Assembly (NCBI RefSeq): GCF_000317125.1
Contig: NC_019695.1
Location: 1,352,336-1,416,335 of the forward strand
Reading direction: 5' to 3'
DNA from: Chroococcidiopsis thermalis PCC 7203
Lineage (GTDB): Bacteria > Cyanobacteriota > Cyanobacteriia > Cyanobacteriales > Chroococcidiopsidaceae
DNA length: 64,000 nt
Numbering within the stretch: position 1 is the first letter of the stretch; each line of letters opens with the position of its first letter. The notes under the pieces were generated by a model. That model was given only the letters and a program-made list of their open reading frames with translations. It did not search any database and was not told the DNA's origin. Positions 3,216 through 9,053 of this stretch are shown here, in pieces. Made by a program: the position numbers and the translations under genes.

Positions 3216-4625
3216 ATGAATTCAATCGATCTAGCATTTGCTCCAGCTCTAGAACAAGCACGGCTAATTCGACATAAGGAAGTTTCGCCACGGGAGTTAG
3301 TGCAGCTTTATTTAGAACGAATTGAACAATTCAATCCGCAGTTAGGTTGCTATTTTACGGTGATGGCAGAAATGGCGATCGCCCAGGCACAAACTCAGAC
3401 AGAAATGCTAGCTGGCACTCAAGATCCGGCTGAGTTACCGTCTTTTTTTGGCGTACCGATCGCCATTAAAGATATGAATCCCGTGGCTGATGTCCCTTGT
3501 AGTTATGGCAGTCCAGCACTGCGCGATCGCGTCGCGACTTACGATGATGCCGTAGTCGCGCGGATGAAACAAGCTGGATTTATTATCTTGGGTAAAACCG
3601 CCACTTCCGAATTGGGTTCTTTTCCCTATACAGAGCCGATGGGATTTCCTCCTGCCCGGAATCCTTGGAATCCAGAATATACACCAGGGGGTTCTAGTGG
3701 GGGATCGGCGGCGGCTGTAGCCGCAGGATTGTGCGCGATCGCCCAAGGTTCGGATGCAGGTGGATCGATTCGCGGTCCCGCCTTCTGTTGTGGTTTAGTA
3801 GGCATCAAACCAGCACGGGGACGGGTCTCCTATGCACCATTGGGAGATCAATTAAGTGGTGTCGCCGCAAACGGTCCTATTGCCCGTACTGTCTCCGATG
3901 CTGCTGCCTTACTAGATGTGATGTCAGGATACGTGACGGGAGATCCGTATTGGTTGCCAGCCCCAAATCCCTCTTTCTTGGCTGCTGCGATGCGATCGCC
4001 CGATCGCCTGCGGATTGCTTTCACCAACTCGCTACCCCAAATTGGAACCGCAGATCCAGTCTGTCAACAAGCAGTTTTGGGTACGGTGAGGCTATTGGAA
4101 GCAATGGGTCATCAAATAGAAGAAGGCTGTCCTGACTTTACGGGATTAATCGAGCCATTTACTGCTGTGTGGCAAGCAGGCGTAGCTTATGCTGGACTAC
4201 CAAAAGAAATCTTGCAACCGATGAATCAGTGGTTGCTCGAACAATCGGGTTCTGCCGGAGATTATCTTCGTGCTGTCGCGCAGGTACAAGTCATTGCCAG
4301 ACAGATTGTGGCATTTTTTGACTCAGTAGACGCGCTAATCTTACCTACATACATGCACCCACCAATTCGAGTCGGCGAGTGGGCAGCATTAAGTCCAGAA
4401 GAGACGCTACAAAAAATCATTAATTGGGTTGCTCCCTGTCCGCCTTTTAATGCTAGCGGACTACCCGCGATCGCTATTCCTACTGGTTTTGCGCCTAACG
4501 GTTTACCCATCGGCATTCAAATTGTCGGTCGTCCTACAGCCGAAGCTACCATTATTGCGATCGCCGCTCAACTCGAAGTCAATAAATTCTGGAGTCAGCA
4601 TCGACCAGCTATTGGTAATGAGTAA
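3216..4625 (+). CDS. amidase signature family enzyme
   Basis: This 469-residue protein belongs to the amidase signature family, which hydrolyses C-N amide bonds through a Ser-cisSer-Lys triad. The catalytic Lys is K85 in GVPIAIKD. The Gly/Ser-rich signature GGSSGGSAAAVAAG is complete, and the nucleophile Ser lies in GSDAGGSIRGPA, followed by GLVGIKP. The C-terminal part ends with FNASGLPAIAIP and LPIGIQIVGR, as in the family. It could be confused with GatA, but no gatB/gatC is adjacent, and the C-terminal region looks like a general amidase (AmiC type). The stop codon borders a tract of tandem repeats. Confidence 0.9.
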   Translation: MNSIDLAFAPALEQARLIRHKEVSPRELVQLYLERIEQFNPQLGCYFTVMAEMAIAQAQTQTEMLAGTQDPAELPSFFGVPIAIKDMNPVADVPCSYGSPALRDRVATYDDAVVARMKQAGFIILGKTATSELGSFPYTEPMGFPPARNPWNPEYTPGGSSGGSAAAVAAGLCAIAQGSDAGGSIRGPAFCCGLVGIKPARGRVSYAPLGDQLSGVAANGPIARTVSDAAALLDVMSGYVTGDPYWLPAPNPSFLAAAMRSPDRLRIAFTNSLPQIGTADPVCQQAVLGTVRLLEAMGHQIEEGCPDFTGLIEPFTAVWQAGVAYAGLPKEILQPMNQWLLEQSGSAGDYLRAVAQVQVIARQIVAFFDSVDALILPTYMHPPIRVGEWAALSPEETLQKIINWVAPCPPFNASGLPAIAIPTGFAPNGLPIGIQIVGRPTAEATIIAIAAQLEVNKFWSQHRPAIGNE

Positions 4626-4834
4626 GTCAAAATTCAAAAGTCAAAATTCAAAAGTCAAAACTGAGGAGTCAGGAGTCAGGAGTCGAGGAAGAAAGCAGAG
4701 GAAGCAACTCAAAATTCACGTATTCACGCACTAATTCCGAATTCCGAATTCCCCCTACACCCTACACCCCACACCCTATTCATCACATACCACGCACTCC
4801 TCACTCCTCACTCCTCACTCCTCACTCCTCACTA
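4622..4834. repeat. intergenic heptamer repeat tract
   Basis: The gap holds successive short tandem arrays: TCAAAATTCAAAAG copies, GGAGTCA copies, AATTCCG copies near 4735-4751, CCCTACA copies and a CACTCCT array near 4795-4833. All are about 7-bp periodic. No gene is visible. Confidence 0.9.
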
Positions 4835-4892: not shown

Positions 4893-6293
4893 ATGACTAG
4901 TAGTGAAGATACTCTGCGGGCTTTGCGTGCAGCCTTGCTTGTTTCGCCCGATAATCTACCGCTCCGCCAACATTTGGCAGATATTCTCATGGAATTAGGG
5001 CAATTTGAGGAGGCAGAACAAGAGTATCGCCTTGCTCTGTCATTGATGCCTGAAAACCATTTTCTACAATTCAATTTGGCTTCTGCTTTTTATCACCAAG
5101 GCAAAAATTCACAAGCAATGGTGCTGGTCGAACAGTTGCTGAAAAGCGCTGAACCTCCGGCTATTGTGCATCTATTCTACGCTCGTTTGCTGCTGCACGC
5201 TGGCGATACTACCAATGCATCCGTACATTTTCATATAGCTGTTGCACTCGATCCAGAAATGAACGATCCTATCTTGGCGGAGCGGCTTGGCAATACCGAT
5301 GTATCCACTGATAAAATTGCTGTTTCAGAGTACAAATCACCAAAATCTAAATCTTCAGAATACAAACTACCGGAGTACGAATTAGATGTTAGTACTGCGG
5401 TTGAAGCACCTTTAGAACAACCATCAATTACTTTTCAAGACGTTGGTGGTATGGATGCCATTAAGGAAGAAATTCGGCTGAAGATTGTTCATCCATTAGC
5501 GCATCCAGAAATTTATCAAGCTTACGGTCAACGAATTGGAGGAGGAGTATTAATGTATGGTCCTCCTGGTTGCGGTAAAACTTATTTAGCCAGAGCTACA
5601 GCTGGAGAAATTAAAGCGAGATTTTTATCTATAGGTATCAATGATGTCTTGGATATGTGGCTGGGGAGTAGTGAAAAGAACTTACACGAATTGTTCGAGC
5701 AAGCACGACGATCTAAGCCTTGCGTGCTTTTTTTCGATGAAGTCGATGCTCTAGCTGCCAAACGCACTGATATGCGATATAGTAGCGGTCGCCAAATTGT
5801 CAATCAGTTTCTTGCCGAATTAGATGGTGTAGAAAGTCCTAATGATGGCATTTTGATTTTAGCTGCTACTAACGCTCCCTGGCATTTAGATTCAGCCTTT
5901 CGCAGACCAGGACGCTTCGATCGCATTATGTTTGTTCCACCACCCGATCGCCACGCCAGAACACATATTTTGCGTATTCTCTGCCGTCATAAACCAATTG
6001 AAGATATTGACTACGATTATTTAAGTAAAAAAACTGTCAACTTTTCTGGAGCAGATTTAAAGGCAGTTGTAGATTTAGCTATAGACAGAAAGCTACAGTT
6101 AGCAATTAAGCAAGGGATACCTAAACCTTTAACAACTAGAGATTTCCTAGCCGCAGTCGAATTAATTCATCCTTCCGTTACGGAATGGTTTGCCACTGCT
6201 CGGAACTATGCCACTTATGCTAACGAAAATGGCATTTATGATGATATTTTGAATTATTTACAACAAACAAAAGATAAAAACAAGCTATTTTAA
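4893..6293 (+). CDS. TPR-AAA+ ATPase fusion protein
   Basis: The 466-residue protein has an N-terminal TPR region (about residues 5-150), a polar Ser/Lys-rich linker (about 150-185) and one AAA+ module of the CDC48/Vps4/FtsH type. The AAA part shows DVGGMDAIKEEI, Walker A YGPPGCGKT near residue 222, Walker B CVLFFDEVDAL near 278, sensor 1 AATNAPW, and arginine fingers in FRRPGRFDR near 335. There is no zinc-protease motif (HEXXH), so it is an unfoldase or remodeller rather than a protease. It lies 88 bp ahead of a TPR membrane protein on the same strand, suggesting a functional pair. The substrate is unknown; the N-terminal TPR part probably selects it. Confidence 0.88.
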   Translation: MTSSEDTLRALRAALLVSPDNLPLRQHLADILMELGQFEEAEQEYRLALSLMPENHFLQFNLASAFYHQGKNSQAMVLVEQLLKSAEPPAIVHLFYARLLLHAGDTTNASVHFHIAVALDPEMNDPILAERLGNTDVSTDKIAVSEYKSPKSKSSEYKLPEYELDVSTAVEAPLEQPSITFQDVGGMDAIKEEIRLKIVHPLAHPEIYQAYGQRIGGGVLMYGPPGCGKTYLARATAGEIKARFLSIGINDVLDMWLGSSEKNLHELFEQARRSKPCVLFFDEVDALAAKRTDMRYSSGRQIVNQFLAELDGVESPNDGILILAATNAPWHLDSAFRRPGRFDRIMFVPPPDRHARTHILRILCRHKPIEDIDYDYLSKKTVNFSGADLKAVVDLAIDRKLQLAIKQGIPKPLTTRDFLAAVELIHPSVTEWFATARNYATYANENGIYDDILNYLQQTKDKNKLF

Positions 6294-6326
6294 GTTTAAT
6301 CTTTTAAAGATTAGCTAAAATTTGTA

Positions 6327-6354
6327 GTAGGATGCGTTAATCAACGCGCCCTAC
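6327..6354. repeat. imperfect 28-bp palindrome between the two TPR genes
   Basis: GTAGGATGCGTT and AACGCGCCCTAC form imperfect arms around a short centre. The size and the GTAGG/CCTAC ends match the other palindromes of the window. It sits between the AAA+ and TPR-membrane genes. Confidence 0.6.
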
Positions 6355-6381
6355 CGGATATATGTAACGGCAATAATTTTT

Positions 6382-7260
6382 ATGTTTGTAAATTTAGATA
6401 AAGCATTAATTTTAATCGAGCAATCGCGCTACAAATTAGCAGCAATAGAAATTGAGCGCCAATTAGCGACCGATCCAAATAGTTCTTTTGCCCATGCTTT
6501 GTTAAGTATATGCTTAATAGAAATGAATCGAGATCGAGAGGCAACTCAAGCAGCAAAGCGAGCAGTATATTTAGCTCCTGATTTATCTGATACTCATTAT
6601 AATTTAGCTAAGATTCTCTATATTCAAAAGCAACTTAAGCCAGCCAAAAAAGTAGTCCAAGAAGCAATTCGGTTAGAACCAGAAATTGCCGATTATTTTG
6701 CCTTATTGTCAGTCATTCAATTGGCACAAGGCGATCGCGATCGCGCATTATTCAGTGCGGAACAGGGATTGAGCTTGGATGCCGAGCATGTATTGTGTCT
6801 CAATCTTCGTGCTATGGCTTTATTACGCCTACGCCGCTATCAAGAAGCACAAACCACATTGGATGCAGCAATCTTTCAAAACCCCGAAAATTCAGCTACT
6901 TATGCGATTAAAGGTTGGGTATATTTATATTGTCGGAATAGAGATTTGGCTGAACGATGTTTTCGCGAATCGTTGCGACTCGATCCCGAACAAGAACAGG
7001 CACGCACGGGCATAGTAGAAGCTTTGAAGTTGAGATACTCGCTCTATAATTTTGTATTTAACTATAGGAATTTTTTGAGACAAATTAATATTTTTCTGCG
7101 GATAGCATTTGTTAGTATTTTTGTGGTTGTAAGTTTGTTGAATTGGCTCTTCTTACTAGTGCCACTCTCAATGTTACTATTAGAAACCACTCAAGCTTTG
7201 TTTAACCTACTGCTTAGATTTGATACCCAATGGCGATCGCTCCACGTCCCCTCGCATTAA
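6382..7260 (+). CDS. TPR protein with C-terminal membrane segments
   Basis: The protein has 292 residues. About residues 1-215 form consecutive 34-residue TPR helices, with repeated patterns such as ALLSICLIEMNRDREATQAA, PDLSDTHYNLAKIL and SATYAIKGWVYLYCRNRDLA. Residues about 230-285 are strongly hydrophobic (FLRIAFVSIFVVVSLL and WLFLLVPLSMLLL), predicting two membrane helices that anchor the TPR part at a membrane. The gene follows the TPR-AAA+ ATPase on the same strand and is likely its partner, perhaps a membrane receptor, which is inference. No specific family name is recognised. Confidence 0.82.
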   Translation: MFVNLDKALILIEQSRYKLAAIEIERQLATDPNSSFAHALLSICLIEMNRDREATQAAKRAVYLAPDLSDTHYNLAKILYIQKQLKPAKKVVQEAIRLEPEIADYFALLSVIQLAQGDRDRALFSAEQGLSLDAEHVLCLNLRAMALLRLRRYQEAQTTLDAAIFQNPENSATYAIKGWVYLYCRNRDLAERCFRESLRLDPEQEQARTGIVEALKLRYSLYNFVFNYRNFLRQINIFLRIAFVSIFVVVSLLNWLFLLVPLSMLLLETTQALFNLLLRFDTQWRSLHVPSH

Positions 7261-7346
7261 TTCTGCTGGCGCGTACGGTAGCATGAAGGAATCGGCAGCG
7301 CGATCGCATCGCGTTGATATCTGTTCCACATCGCGGGAGAATACCC

Positions 7347-7847
7347 ATGCCACCGAGAATTACCGATCCAGTTGCATGGCAACAGGCAGAACTCTTAATG
7401 CAACCTGCTTTTATTCGCATCATCGACCACATTCGCAAGCATTTGGACGAATCAGCGTGGCAGGGGACTTACGAGAACGTATTAATCTGGTCTCCAGACA
7501 CGACAGAGGAAATGAAAACTAGAGTAATCCTGCTATTGCAAGAATTGGATGCTGCTTCTCCAGAACGCACGGCAGAAATAGAACAGGCGATCGCCAACCT
7601 TCCGACTCCCCAGCCAGGATATCAGTTATCTCTACAAAACCAAGACCAACAGTATAATTTCGATCTGTGGGAACTGTGCTATCAGGTTTGCTTTCAGCAA
7701 TACAATGCAGACTTGACATCCAGTCATAGTTCGGTAGAAATTGACACTAGCTTGATTGATGAAACTGGCGAGGTAGACTGGCAGCGTTTAGATACTAAAG
7801 CAGGTGCAGCAGTCGAACAAGTCTTTAGTAGTTTACCGAAGATTTAG
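7347..7847 (+). CDS. conserved cyanobacterial protein of unknown function
   Basis: I start this 166-residue protein at ATG 7347, preceded by a GGGAG ribosome site, rather than at a start 33 bases upstream. It is acidic and soluble, without signal or membrane segments, and rich in Trp/Gln in the first half (DPVAWQQAELLMQPAFIRIIDHIRKHL). It ends in DTKAGAAVEQVFSSLPKI. It resembles uncharacterised cyanobacterial proteins but I cannot give a function. It follows the TPR membrane gene by 86 bp on the same strand. Tandem heptamers begin directly at its stop codon. Confidence 0.75.
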   Translation: MPPRITDPVAWQQAELLMQPAFIRIIDHIRKHLDESAWQGTYENVLIWSPDTTEEMKTRVILLLQELDAASPERTAEIEQAIANLPTPQPGYQLSLQNQDQQYNFDLWELCYQVCFQQYNADLTSSHSSVEIDTSLIDETGEVDWQRLDTKAGAAVEQVFSSLPKI

Positions 7848-7945
7848 TGAGGAGTGAGGAGTCAGGGGTGAGGAGCGAGTATTAAGTAGTGAGTAATGAG
7901 TAGTGAATTTTGACTTTTAACTTTTAACTTTTGATTTCCCCATTA
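7848..7945. repeat. heptamer repeats before ygfZ
   Basis: GAGGAGT-type copies, then TGACTTTTAACTTTT-type and CCCATTA-type copies. Both arrays recur across the window. No gene fits here. Confidence 0.8.
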
Positions 7946-7961
7946 CCCATTACATAAAAAT

Positions 7962-9053
7962 ATGATGAGAGAAAAGTTACAGGTAGTTCAAGCGGCGGCG
8001 GGAGCGGTTTTTGAGGAAATTGCCGGAGACAAAATTCCGGTGAGTTTTGGCAACGATGTAGCAGCTAAGCAAGCAGTAAGGGAAGGGGTAGCAATCTGCG
8101 ATCGCTCCCACTGGGGAATCATCCGCGTTACCGATGAAGACCGCATTCGCTTTTTACACAACCAAAGTACCAACGATTTTCAAATTCTCAAACCAGGGCA
8201 AGGCTGCGACACGGTTTTTGTCTCTTCTACTGCCCGCACGATCGATCTAGCAACGGCATATGTGACTGAAGACGCAGTACTGCTGATCGTTTCTCCTAAT
8301 CGCCGTCAGTATTTGATAGATTGGCTCGATCGCTATATCTTTTTTGCCGATCGCGTCCAACTAGAAGATGTAACTGGCGAAACTGCTATTTTCAGTCTGC
8401 TTGGCACTAAAAGCGATGAAATTTTGGCACAACTGGACTTAAGTTCGATTATCGGTCAAGCATATGCTAACCACCAGCTCGTTCAACTCCAAGATGTAGA
8501 AATTCGGGTGGCAGTTGGGATTGGATTAGCCACACCTGGATATACCCTAATTGTGCCAGCAGACAAAGCGGCGATCGTTTGGAATCACCTCATAGAAACT
8601 GGTGCAGTCCCTCTAGGCGATCGCGTTTGGGAACAATTGCGGATCGAACAAGGTCGCCCCGTCCCCGATAAAGAACTGACTGAAGATTACAATCCCTTAG
8701 AAGCAGGCTTGTGGCAAACTATTTCTTTCAATAAAGGTTGCTATATCGGTCAAGAAACAATTGCGCGTCTGAATACTTATAAGGGAGTCAAACAACACCT
8801 ATGGGGAATTCGCCTTAACGCTCCAGCCGAGCCAGGTAGTATTATTACTGTAGGTGAAGAGAAAGTAGGTATTCTCACCAGCTATACCGATACTGAGGAG
8901 GGTAGCTTCGGACTGGGTTACATCCGCACCAAAGCTGGTGGTATTGGTTTGAAAGTTAAAGTCGGAGAAGTTATAGGCGAAGTCGTTGACGTTCCTTTCT
9001 TAACCCGTAGTCCCGATCGCAGTGATTCTAGTACAGATGCAATACATTCGTAG
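7962..9053 (+). CDS. ygfZ: folate-binding YgfZ/GcvT-like protein
   Basis: YgfZ proteins bind tetrahydrofolate and help assemble or repair Fe-S clusters, notably for MiaB and related enzymes. The 363-residue protein carries the diagnostic YgfZ motif KGCYIGQETIAR near residue 260, with the conserved Cys. The N-terminal part has the GcvT-like fold signature DRSHWGIIRVTDEDRIRFLHNQSTND. It is not GcvT itself, because the glycine-cleavage T-protein lacks the KGC.GQE motif. The stop codon at 9051-9053 is the TAG within the left arm of a 28-bp palindrome, so the C-terminal residues directly adjoin an inserted element. Confidence 0.92.
   Translation: MMREKLQVVQAAAGAVFEEIAGDKIPVSFGNDVAAKQAVREGVAICDRSHWGIIRVTDEDRIRFLHNQSTNDFQILKPGQGCDTVFVSSTARTIDLATAYVTEDAVLLIVSPNRRQYLIDWLDRYIFFADRVQLEDVTGETAIFSLLGTKSDEILAQLDLSSIIGQAYANHQLVQLQDVEIRVAVGIGLATPGYTLIVPADKAAIVWNHLIETGAVPLGDRVWEQLRIEQGRPVPDKELTEDYNPLEAGLWQTISFNKGCYIGQETIARLNTYKGVKQHLWGIRLNAPAEPGSIITVGEEKVGILTSYTDTEEGSFGLGYIRTKAGGIGLKVKVGEVIGEVVDVPFLTRSPDRSDSSTDAIHS

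Follow-up and report, generated by a model that had tools for sequence, protein, structure and literature searches.

How is a single gene for a TPR-bearing AAA+ ATPase to be understood when a gene for a TPR-membrane protein lies directly behind it, and do the two act together? The question is raised by a locus in Chroococcidiopsis thermalis PCC 7203, within a stretch of 64,000 nucleotides (contig NC_019695.1, positions 1,352,336 to 1,416,335) that was analysed as a whole and is called the window hereafter. Three open reading frames lie on the + strand at 4893-6293 (466 amino acids), 6382-7260 (292 amino acids) and 7314-7847, and had been proposed in a preliminary description, made from the sequence alone, as an ATPase, a membrane-anchored adaptor and an accessory protein of an undescribed system. 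As strongly supported by the comparisons below, the first two genes are genuine and make up a conserved module of an ATPase and its membrane partner; the third is a separate gene.

Conserved linkage of the ATPase gene and the gene for its TPR-membrane partner

Relatives were collected by one scan of genome contigs with a profile of the ATPase C-terminal tail; the best 80 of 240 matches were kept, a set that is not randomly drawn. Among the 76 kept genome loci having at least 900 bp downstream, the partner started within 300 bp in 65, including one locus (L099) whose partner was counted as adjacent though divided over two frames. In the remaining 11, the partner was found at 0.76-1.05 kb in three (L079, L091 and L120), split in one (L106) and not found nearby in seven. 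Most partners scored 400-630 bits against the partner profile, which had been derived from 64 of the scored loci; the matches of those 64 are by construction. A separate set of 17 loci, 16 of them with room for a partner, showed linkage in 10 at 100 bits and in 14 at 60 bits. Among 75 pairs, 35 overlapped (22 by four bases and 13 by one), 19 were spaced by 0-30 bp and 21 by more than 30 bp, these counts resting on the analyst's choice of start codon; the gap in the window is 88 bp. As a control, the partner was found at 0 of 32 other AAA loci within short flanks of 1.5 kb beyond each AAA match.

For the eight of the 76 loci without a near partner, the membrane profile of the partner was matched elsewhere in the genome strongly in four (L107, L123, L127 and L138) and weakly in L106, whose local partner is split, and in L113; no match was obtained for L100 and L124. 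Two further loci without downstream room (L110 and L128) had strong matches elsewhere in the genome. Altogether, in 12 genomes lacking a plain local partner, the membrane profile match was strong in seven (that of L120 being the local copy), weak in two and absent in three; a partner on another contig than the ATPase may lie at any true distance from it. The clearest natural separation is in genome G137 (L055), where ATPase and partner are both kept on one contig, at 1.16 and 4.93 Mb.

In the phylum Cyanobacteriota, the ATPase-tail profile was matched in 16 of 386 genomes. The membrane profile was matched in seven of the 386, all within these 16, and in none of the other 370 (Fisher p 5e-11, relatedness uncorrected). 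In another eight of the 16, a partner was seen on inspecting the locus; these are G170, with an adjacent partner of 364 bits that was missed by the membrane profile, the window genome, with a short partner, and six genomes of lineage f47, with a short partner at 1-4 bp from the ATPase. The last one, G085, carries an ATPase fragment only, and no partner was seen there. The pairing, which had originally been drawn from position and shared TPRs, is borne out by the proximity, the overlapping frames and the joint occurrence; the ATPase homologues mostly stand with the TPR-membrane gene, so that their scattering without it, named in the preliminary description as the outcome that would speak against the pairing, is contradicted.

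When the neighbouring genes were clustered, no family besides the partner was widely shared next to the ATPase; weak recurrences beyond close relatives were seen, such as a helicase-like class in nine loci, six of them in f47. As side observations, a class of about 710 amino acids that looks prolyl-oligopeptidase-like by eye is the immediate upstream neighbour of the ATPase in L081, L113 and L116, which belong to different phyla, and a same-strand upstream gene of 384-399 amino acids, FHA-like by eye, adjoins the ATPase in L058, L060 and L061 of the f48 lineage.

Domains, motifs and kinship of the ATPase

The ATPase gene (4893-6293, + strand) was delimited by the open reading frame, Pfam, alignment and a predicted structure. 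The N-terminal TPR region covers residues 1-131 (4893-5285), with the best Pfam TPR stretches at residues 6-45 and 27-55 above cut-off, weaker ones up to residue 118, and modelled helices with a predicted local distance difference test score (pLDDT) mostly above 90. It is followed by a fast-evolving linker of residues 132-172 (5286-5408), of which 135-167 are disordered with pLDDT below 50, the model being good elsewhere. A single classic AAA module with its lid takes residues 173-427 (5409-6173; Pfam AAA at residues 219-349, 1.8e-40, and AAA_lid_3), and a family-specific C-terminal tail of two helices (WFATARNYATYANENGIYDDIL, 6174-6290), recognised by alignment and model, was part of the search key for relatives.

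The motifs examined were the Walker A GPPGCGKT (5559-5582), the pore-loop aromatic W256 in MWLG (5658-5660), the Walker B FFDE (5730-5741) and the arginine-finger stretch R338-P-G-R341 (5904-5915). Alignment of 61 homologues shows the Walker A sequence, the DE of Walker B, sensor-1 N327, R338 and R341 to be invariant. Further counts were made on the 92 ATPases of at least 280 amino acids out of 98 loci (L071, L074, L089, L117, L127 and L136 being dropped as shorter). Walker A and Walker B, the latter as two hydrophobic residues and DE, are present in 92 of 92; outside this set, Walker A reads GPPGAGKT in Nonomuraea and GPPGTGKT in Actinomyces. Position 256 is W in 79, Y in seven and H in five, and was not read in one. 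The sensor-1/arginine pattern was matched in 84 and the C-tail pattern, which is over-strict, in 47. N-terminal TPRs were detected in 82; the other ten are the six f47 copies (296-345 amino acids), L135 and L114 (cut by a contig end), L143 and L103. The HExxH zinc-protease motif and an HbYX-type C-terminus were found in none of the 92, and no membrane helix was predicted on the ATPase. With Walker A, Walker B, the sensor-1 Asn, two arginines and the AAA fold, the protein has all the hallmarks of classic AAA ATPases, and the original assignment of a single AAA+ module fused to N-terminal TPRs, with Walker and arginine-finger motifs and no protease domain, proved correct.

The closest structural matches of the ATPase model were p97 (Z score 27.7, 263 residues, 2.3 A) and Vps4 (Z score 26.9, 265 residues, 2.6 A), which are unranked as matches differing by less than 1 in Z are taken as tied (VIA-align). 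Among the NCBIfam models, CDC48 gave 223 bits, FtsH 218, PAN 215 and CdvC 176.6, and the cut-offs of CDC48 (802.65), CdvC (650) and FtsH (600) were not reached. An assignment as Vps4/CdvC was rejected on the lack of MIT and of a beta-domain insert and on the CdvC cut-off, one as CDC48/p97 on the single AAA stretch instead of two tandem modules and on the CDC48 cut-off, and one as FtsH on the missing HExxH and the FtsH cut-off. In a 40-row quick tree with CDC48 and FtsH, and no Vps4, as reference sequences and with one row (L008, branch 9.99) disregarded, the family and its actinomycete copies formed one clade (99) separate from CDC48 and FtsH on a long stem of 1.97 changes per column, for which the program warns of long branches.

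Selection was estimated by the ratio of nonsynonymous to synonymous substitution rates (dN/dS) in three pairwise comparisons within the genus, without a significance test. The ratio was below 1 overall for both module genes, with 0.05-0.10 for the AAA domain, 0.17-0.30 for the ATPase TPRs and 0.5-1.4 for the linker, and, in the partner, 0.11-0.17 for the TPRs and 0.46-0.52 for the membrane tail.

Anatomy of the membrane partner

The partner gene (6382-7260, + strand) was described originally as TPRs with two C-terminal membrane helices, and this was confirmed by Pfam and by hydropathy, which places the helices at residues 241-259 and 260-278 (7102-7215). The TPR superhelix (6382-7032) was assigned by Pfam and by the model of a full-length relative, L076 (mean pLDDT 93), in which it extends to about residue 217 and is followed by helices at 221-234, 238-258, 265-294, 305-331, 334-355, 359-385 and 391-413; the model shows six membrane helices. 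By hydropathy of 72 complete partners, six helices were counted in 31, five in 31, four in eight, three in one and two in one, so the usual number is five to six. The window partner, with two, covers positions 1-296 of the 419-position family profile and is without the region of helices 3-6. Downstream of it, the best match to remnants of these helices had an E-value of 0.17 over nine residues and was counted as none. Both sampled congeners likewise have a short, two-helix partner of 292 amino acids. The f47 partners L064-L068 also have two helices, and L063 is cut by a contig end; these scored too low for inclusion among the 72.

Mean numbers of K+R were 3.9, 2.8, 1.1 and 2.2 in the successive predicted cytosolic stretches and 0.7, 0.4 and 1.0 in the outside ones, the stretches being unequal in length. 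A cytosolic TPR domain is favoured by these charges. Because dN/dS is low in the TPRs and higher in the tail, the short partner looks like a maintained protein whose tail is under weaker constraint.

For the membrane region of 32 members, neither Pfam nor NCBIfam gave a convincing match, and the 50 matches listed by a structural search with the partner were TPR matches. A second partner-like gene lies behind the first in seven of 75 loci (L069, L070, L082, L089, L101, L108 and L139), and in L069, L070, L082 and L139 it was observed to outscore the first against the family profile.

Distribution and family tree

Full-length ATPase orthologues were found in five of 60 genomes: that of the window, those of two congeners and, from another family (f12; 64-65% identity), G029 and G056; the best matches in the remaining genomes cover the motor only. 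By the phylum names labelled in the records, which are mostly of metagenome bins, the best 80 of 240 matches come mostly from Planctomycetota, Verrucomicrobiota and Cyanobacteriota, with Bacteroidota, Calditrichota, Chloroflexota, Armatimonadota and others also among them. In an 84-row quick tree, the ATPase family largely tracks phyla (13 label changes against 36.8 when shuffled), and the window ATPase groups with L056 with a support of 98 by the Shimodaira-Hasegawa-like approximate likelihood ratio test. Two observations concern this tree. L099, L100 and L106 form a supported cyanobacterial clade in which the partner is possibly decaying beside an open ATPase frame, and L105, a contig labelled Klebsiella pneumoniae, sits within Verrucomicrobiota and is likely a mislabelled bin.

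Actinomycete ATPase copies were found in a plasmid collection. The pair is present on two Streptomyces linear plasmids and in one Actinomyces oris plasmid record (L198, L199 and L200), the ATPase bearing a short TPR-like stretch and the partners two to four predicted helices; in these three records, the gene annotated as 'ATP-binding protein' or 'AAA family ATPase' overlaps the next gene by four bases. On viral contigs, no relative was found with a narrow query built from five close sequences.

Exclusion of the third gene

The third gene (+ strand) encodes 177 amino acids from a TTG at 7314, with an ATG at 7347, from which its extent is given here as 7347-7847; no Pfam or NCBIfam match was obtained. 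That a third small conserved protein follows on the same strand is right. Its accessory role was rejected, since it is present in 56 of 60 genomes, only five of these with the pair, lies on other contigs in the pair-bearing f12 relatives G029 and G056, and has a ygfZ-like gene as its neighbour in four of the six relatives inspected (at 28-42 bp in L174-L177; at 2.4 kb in L178, and no ygfZ match was found in L179). It is a separate cyanobacterial gene. In the window, a GCV_T/YgfZ-like gene, of the kind that accompanies the third gene in relatives, was noticed at 7962-9053. The intergenic segments flanking the three genes, 4624-4833 and 7846-7934, carry dense heptamer tandem repeats (AAGTCAA, AGGAGTC, CACTCCT, AGTGAGG and others).

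Proposed function and alternatives

The conserved pairing, the intact motor motifs, the architecture of TPRs with membrane helices and dN/dS below 1 are the observed part. On these grounds, a two-gene module of a single-ring, non-proteolytic classic AAA unfoldase or disassembler and a membrane receptor or adaptor is considered the probable arrangement, with moderate confidence. The TPR-membrane protein would reside in the cytoplasmic membrane, its TPR superhelix facing the cytosol, and its TPRs would bind substrates or complexes at the membrane, choosing clients or docking the ring. The partner would recruit an ATPase hexamer, possibly via the ATPase's own TPRs, and the motor would thread the substrate through its pore by the W256 loop, so that membrane-associated proteins may be extracted, unfolded or disassembled and then released, not degraded. 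Because partners with two to six predicted helices exist, the membrane part more probably serves as an anchor than as a channel, and the window partner would be an anchor-only form.

Several points weigh against the motor-receptor arrangement. The 76 loci derive from the best 80 of 240 matches and are non-random. The membrane-profile search, in which at most seven candidates were scored for each genome, overlooked G170 as well as the short forms, and this makes its absences soft. The related cyanobacterial clade of L099, L100 and L106 has a split or missing partner, and no partner was found for L124; in these the ATPase possibly works on its own. Against the family profile, the actinomycete partners give weak matches (47-111 bits), mostly in the TPRs. 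The linker and the membrane tail in the window evolve fast, which is compatible with relaxed constraint. Adjacency cannot separate a receptor from a substrate, and the membrane protein could itself be the client. The remodelling function, the interaction, the ATPase activity, the localisation and the substrates or clients are what we infer from sequence.

This last ambiguity leads to the alternative that the TPR-membrane protein is a dedicated substrate, whose assembly or turnover is controlled by the ATPase as a chaperone. One-to-one pairing and overlapping frames fit it as well as they fit a motor with its receptor; the reduction of the membrane part to two helices with the TPRs kept, and the second partner-like genes in seven of 75 loci, suit an adaptor better, and the substrate role is held to be unlikely. 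To the same degree improbable is an ESCRT-IV-like role (endosomal sorting complex required for transport), in which the ATPase remodels a PspA/Vipp1/Snf7-type membrane polymer and the TPR-membrane protein replaces Snf7 as the membrane contact. It draws on the Trp pore loop, on the structural tie of Vps4 with p97 and on the placing of a VPS4-like ATPase, very probably this one, near ESCRT-type systems in the available part of Ravi et al. 2024 (PMC11237479). PspA_IM30 was above cut-off in nine of the 16 ATPase-tail genomes, the window's among them, and not in the other seven, all of f47 and one of them (G085) with an ATPase fragment only; as f47 keeps the pair without PspA above cut-off, that lineage can do without PspA. 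The window genome has PspA and the pair on one contig, at 5.95 and 1.36 Mb respectively. The gene seen adjacent is that of the TPR-membrane protein, and no ESCRT-III or recurrent PspA-like neighbour was seen among the others, which had been grouped by clustering and put through no Snf7 or PspA model. TPRs stand in place of MIT, no room is left for a beta domain, and the CdvC score ranks below those of CDC48, FtsH and PAN.

An accessory of a secretion or export apparatus, like EccA in type VII secretion, would share with EccA the outline of TPR and AAA, and matches to the Pfam EccA1 N-terminal model, at E-values up to 0.1, occur in 25 of 56 partners. The EccA model gave the ATPase only 29.7 bits against a cut-off of 466.65, and apart from the partner there is no widely shared neighbouring gene family, so such a role is thought very unlikely. 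A place in an anti-phage or other conflict system is the least probable, being barely credible: the patchy distribution, the two-gene compactness and the copies on two Streptomyces linear plasmids would agree with it, but sequence conservation is strong and tracks phyla, and no viral-contig relative appeared with the narrow query. The PHROGs, PADLOC and NCBIfam matches were AAA- or TPR-wide only, as read by the analyst (for example, IteA/IetA with 118.4 bits against a cut-off of 510).

In the usual view, bacteria dispose of unwanted membrane proteins chiefly through FtsH-type proteolysis. The motor-receptor module could, as a tentative and rather doubtful extension, be a widespread uncharacterised bacterial counterpart of p97/Msp1, a non-proteolytic motor with a dedicated membrane receptor, patchy in many phyla and clearing or remodelling membrane proteins without ubiquitin, with the cyanobacterial copy as the minimal anchored-TPR version. 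If true, it would provide a general way to extract or disassemble membrane proteins in Planctomycetota, Verrucomicrobiota, Cyanobacteriota, Actinomycetota, Bacteroidota and others. The shortened window partner suggests which half is dispensable, and this is a question open to experiment.

Comparison with known systems

A VPS4-like AAA+ protein encoded beside a protein of TPRs and a six-transmembrane (6TM) domain in bacteria is mentioned in one sentence, with ACB74714.1 as the example, in the available part of Ravi et al. 2024 (PMC11237479), where the pair is placed beside ESCRT-type systems and a transfer from archaea is proposed. An Opitutaceae locus (L121) belongs to the present family. ACB74714.1, from Opitutus, is a putative homologue. 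At the family level, an AAA+ gene beside a TPR-6TM gene is what was found (six helices in 31 of 72 partners, five in another 31); the window copy has only two. The pair of Ravi et al. 2024 (PMC11237479), as far as described in the available part, is very probably the same module, with the differences that here the ATPase itself bears TPRs, the window partner has two helices, the distribution is put in numbers and the Vps4 features fail. The pair was not described in the available text of Makarova et al. 2024 (PMC10936438), and, with subscription journals and preprints outside the search, no function of it was found in print beyond that one sentence. The claim of an undescribed system therefore holds only in part, the pair as such having very probably been mentioned already; as far as the searches reach, the system has been glimpsed in print and is otherwise uncharacterised.

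Cpa, the Cdc48-like protein of actinobacteria (PMC6017811), is likewise a bacterial CDC48 homologue and is titled a proteasome interactor; in its main text as available, TPR or tetratricopeptide has zero occurrences. With FtsH, the ATPase has the classic AAA domain in common (39.7% identity over 57% of the query to an Arthrobacter protein annotated as FtsH), and it differs in having no predicted membrane helix and no HExxH. With Vps4/CdvC (ESCRT-IV), it shares the single AAA module and the fold, but TPRs replace MIT, of which none was among the Pfam hits at E-values up to 0.001. The Vps4 beta domain is inserted in the small AAA subdomain, and in the present model helix 386-407 is followed after seven residues by helix 415-422, leaving no room for such an insert. 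The likeness to p97/CDC48, the closest by profile and tied with Vps4 in structure, consists of 38% identity, the fold (the D2-only entry 8vls also gave a Z score of 26.6), the Trp pore loop and the arginine fingers, whereas the single AAA module, the TPR N-domain, the own tail and the separate clade on a long stem set the family apart. In its proposed working mode, the module would resemble Msp1/ATAD1 as a membrane-linked single-ring AAA extractor; Msp1/ATAD1 has the membrane anchor on the ATPase itself, whereas here the anchor is on a separate TPR protein.

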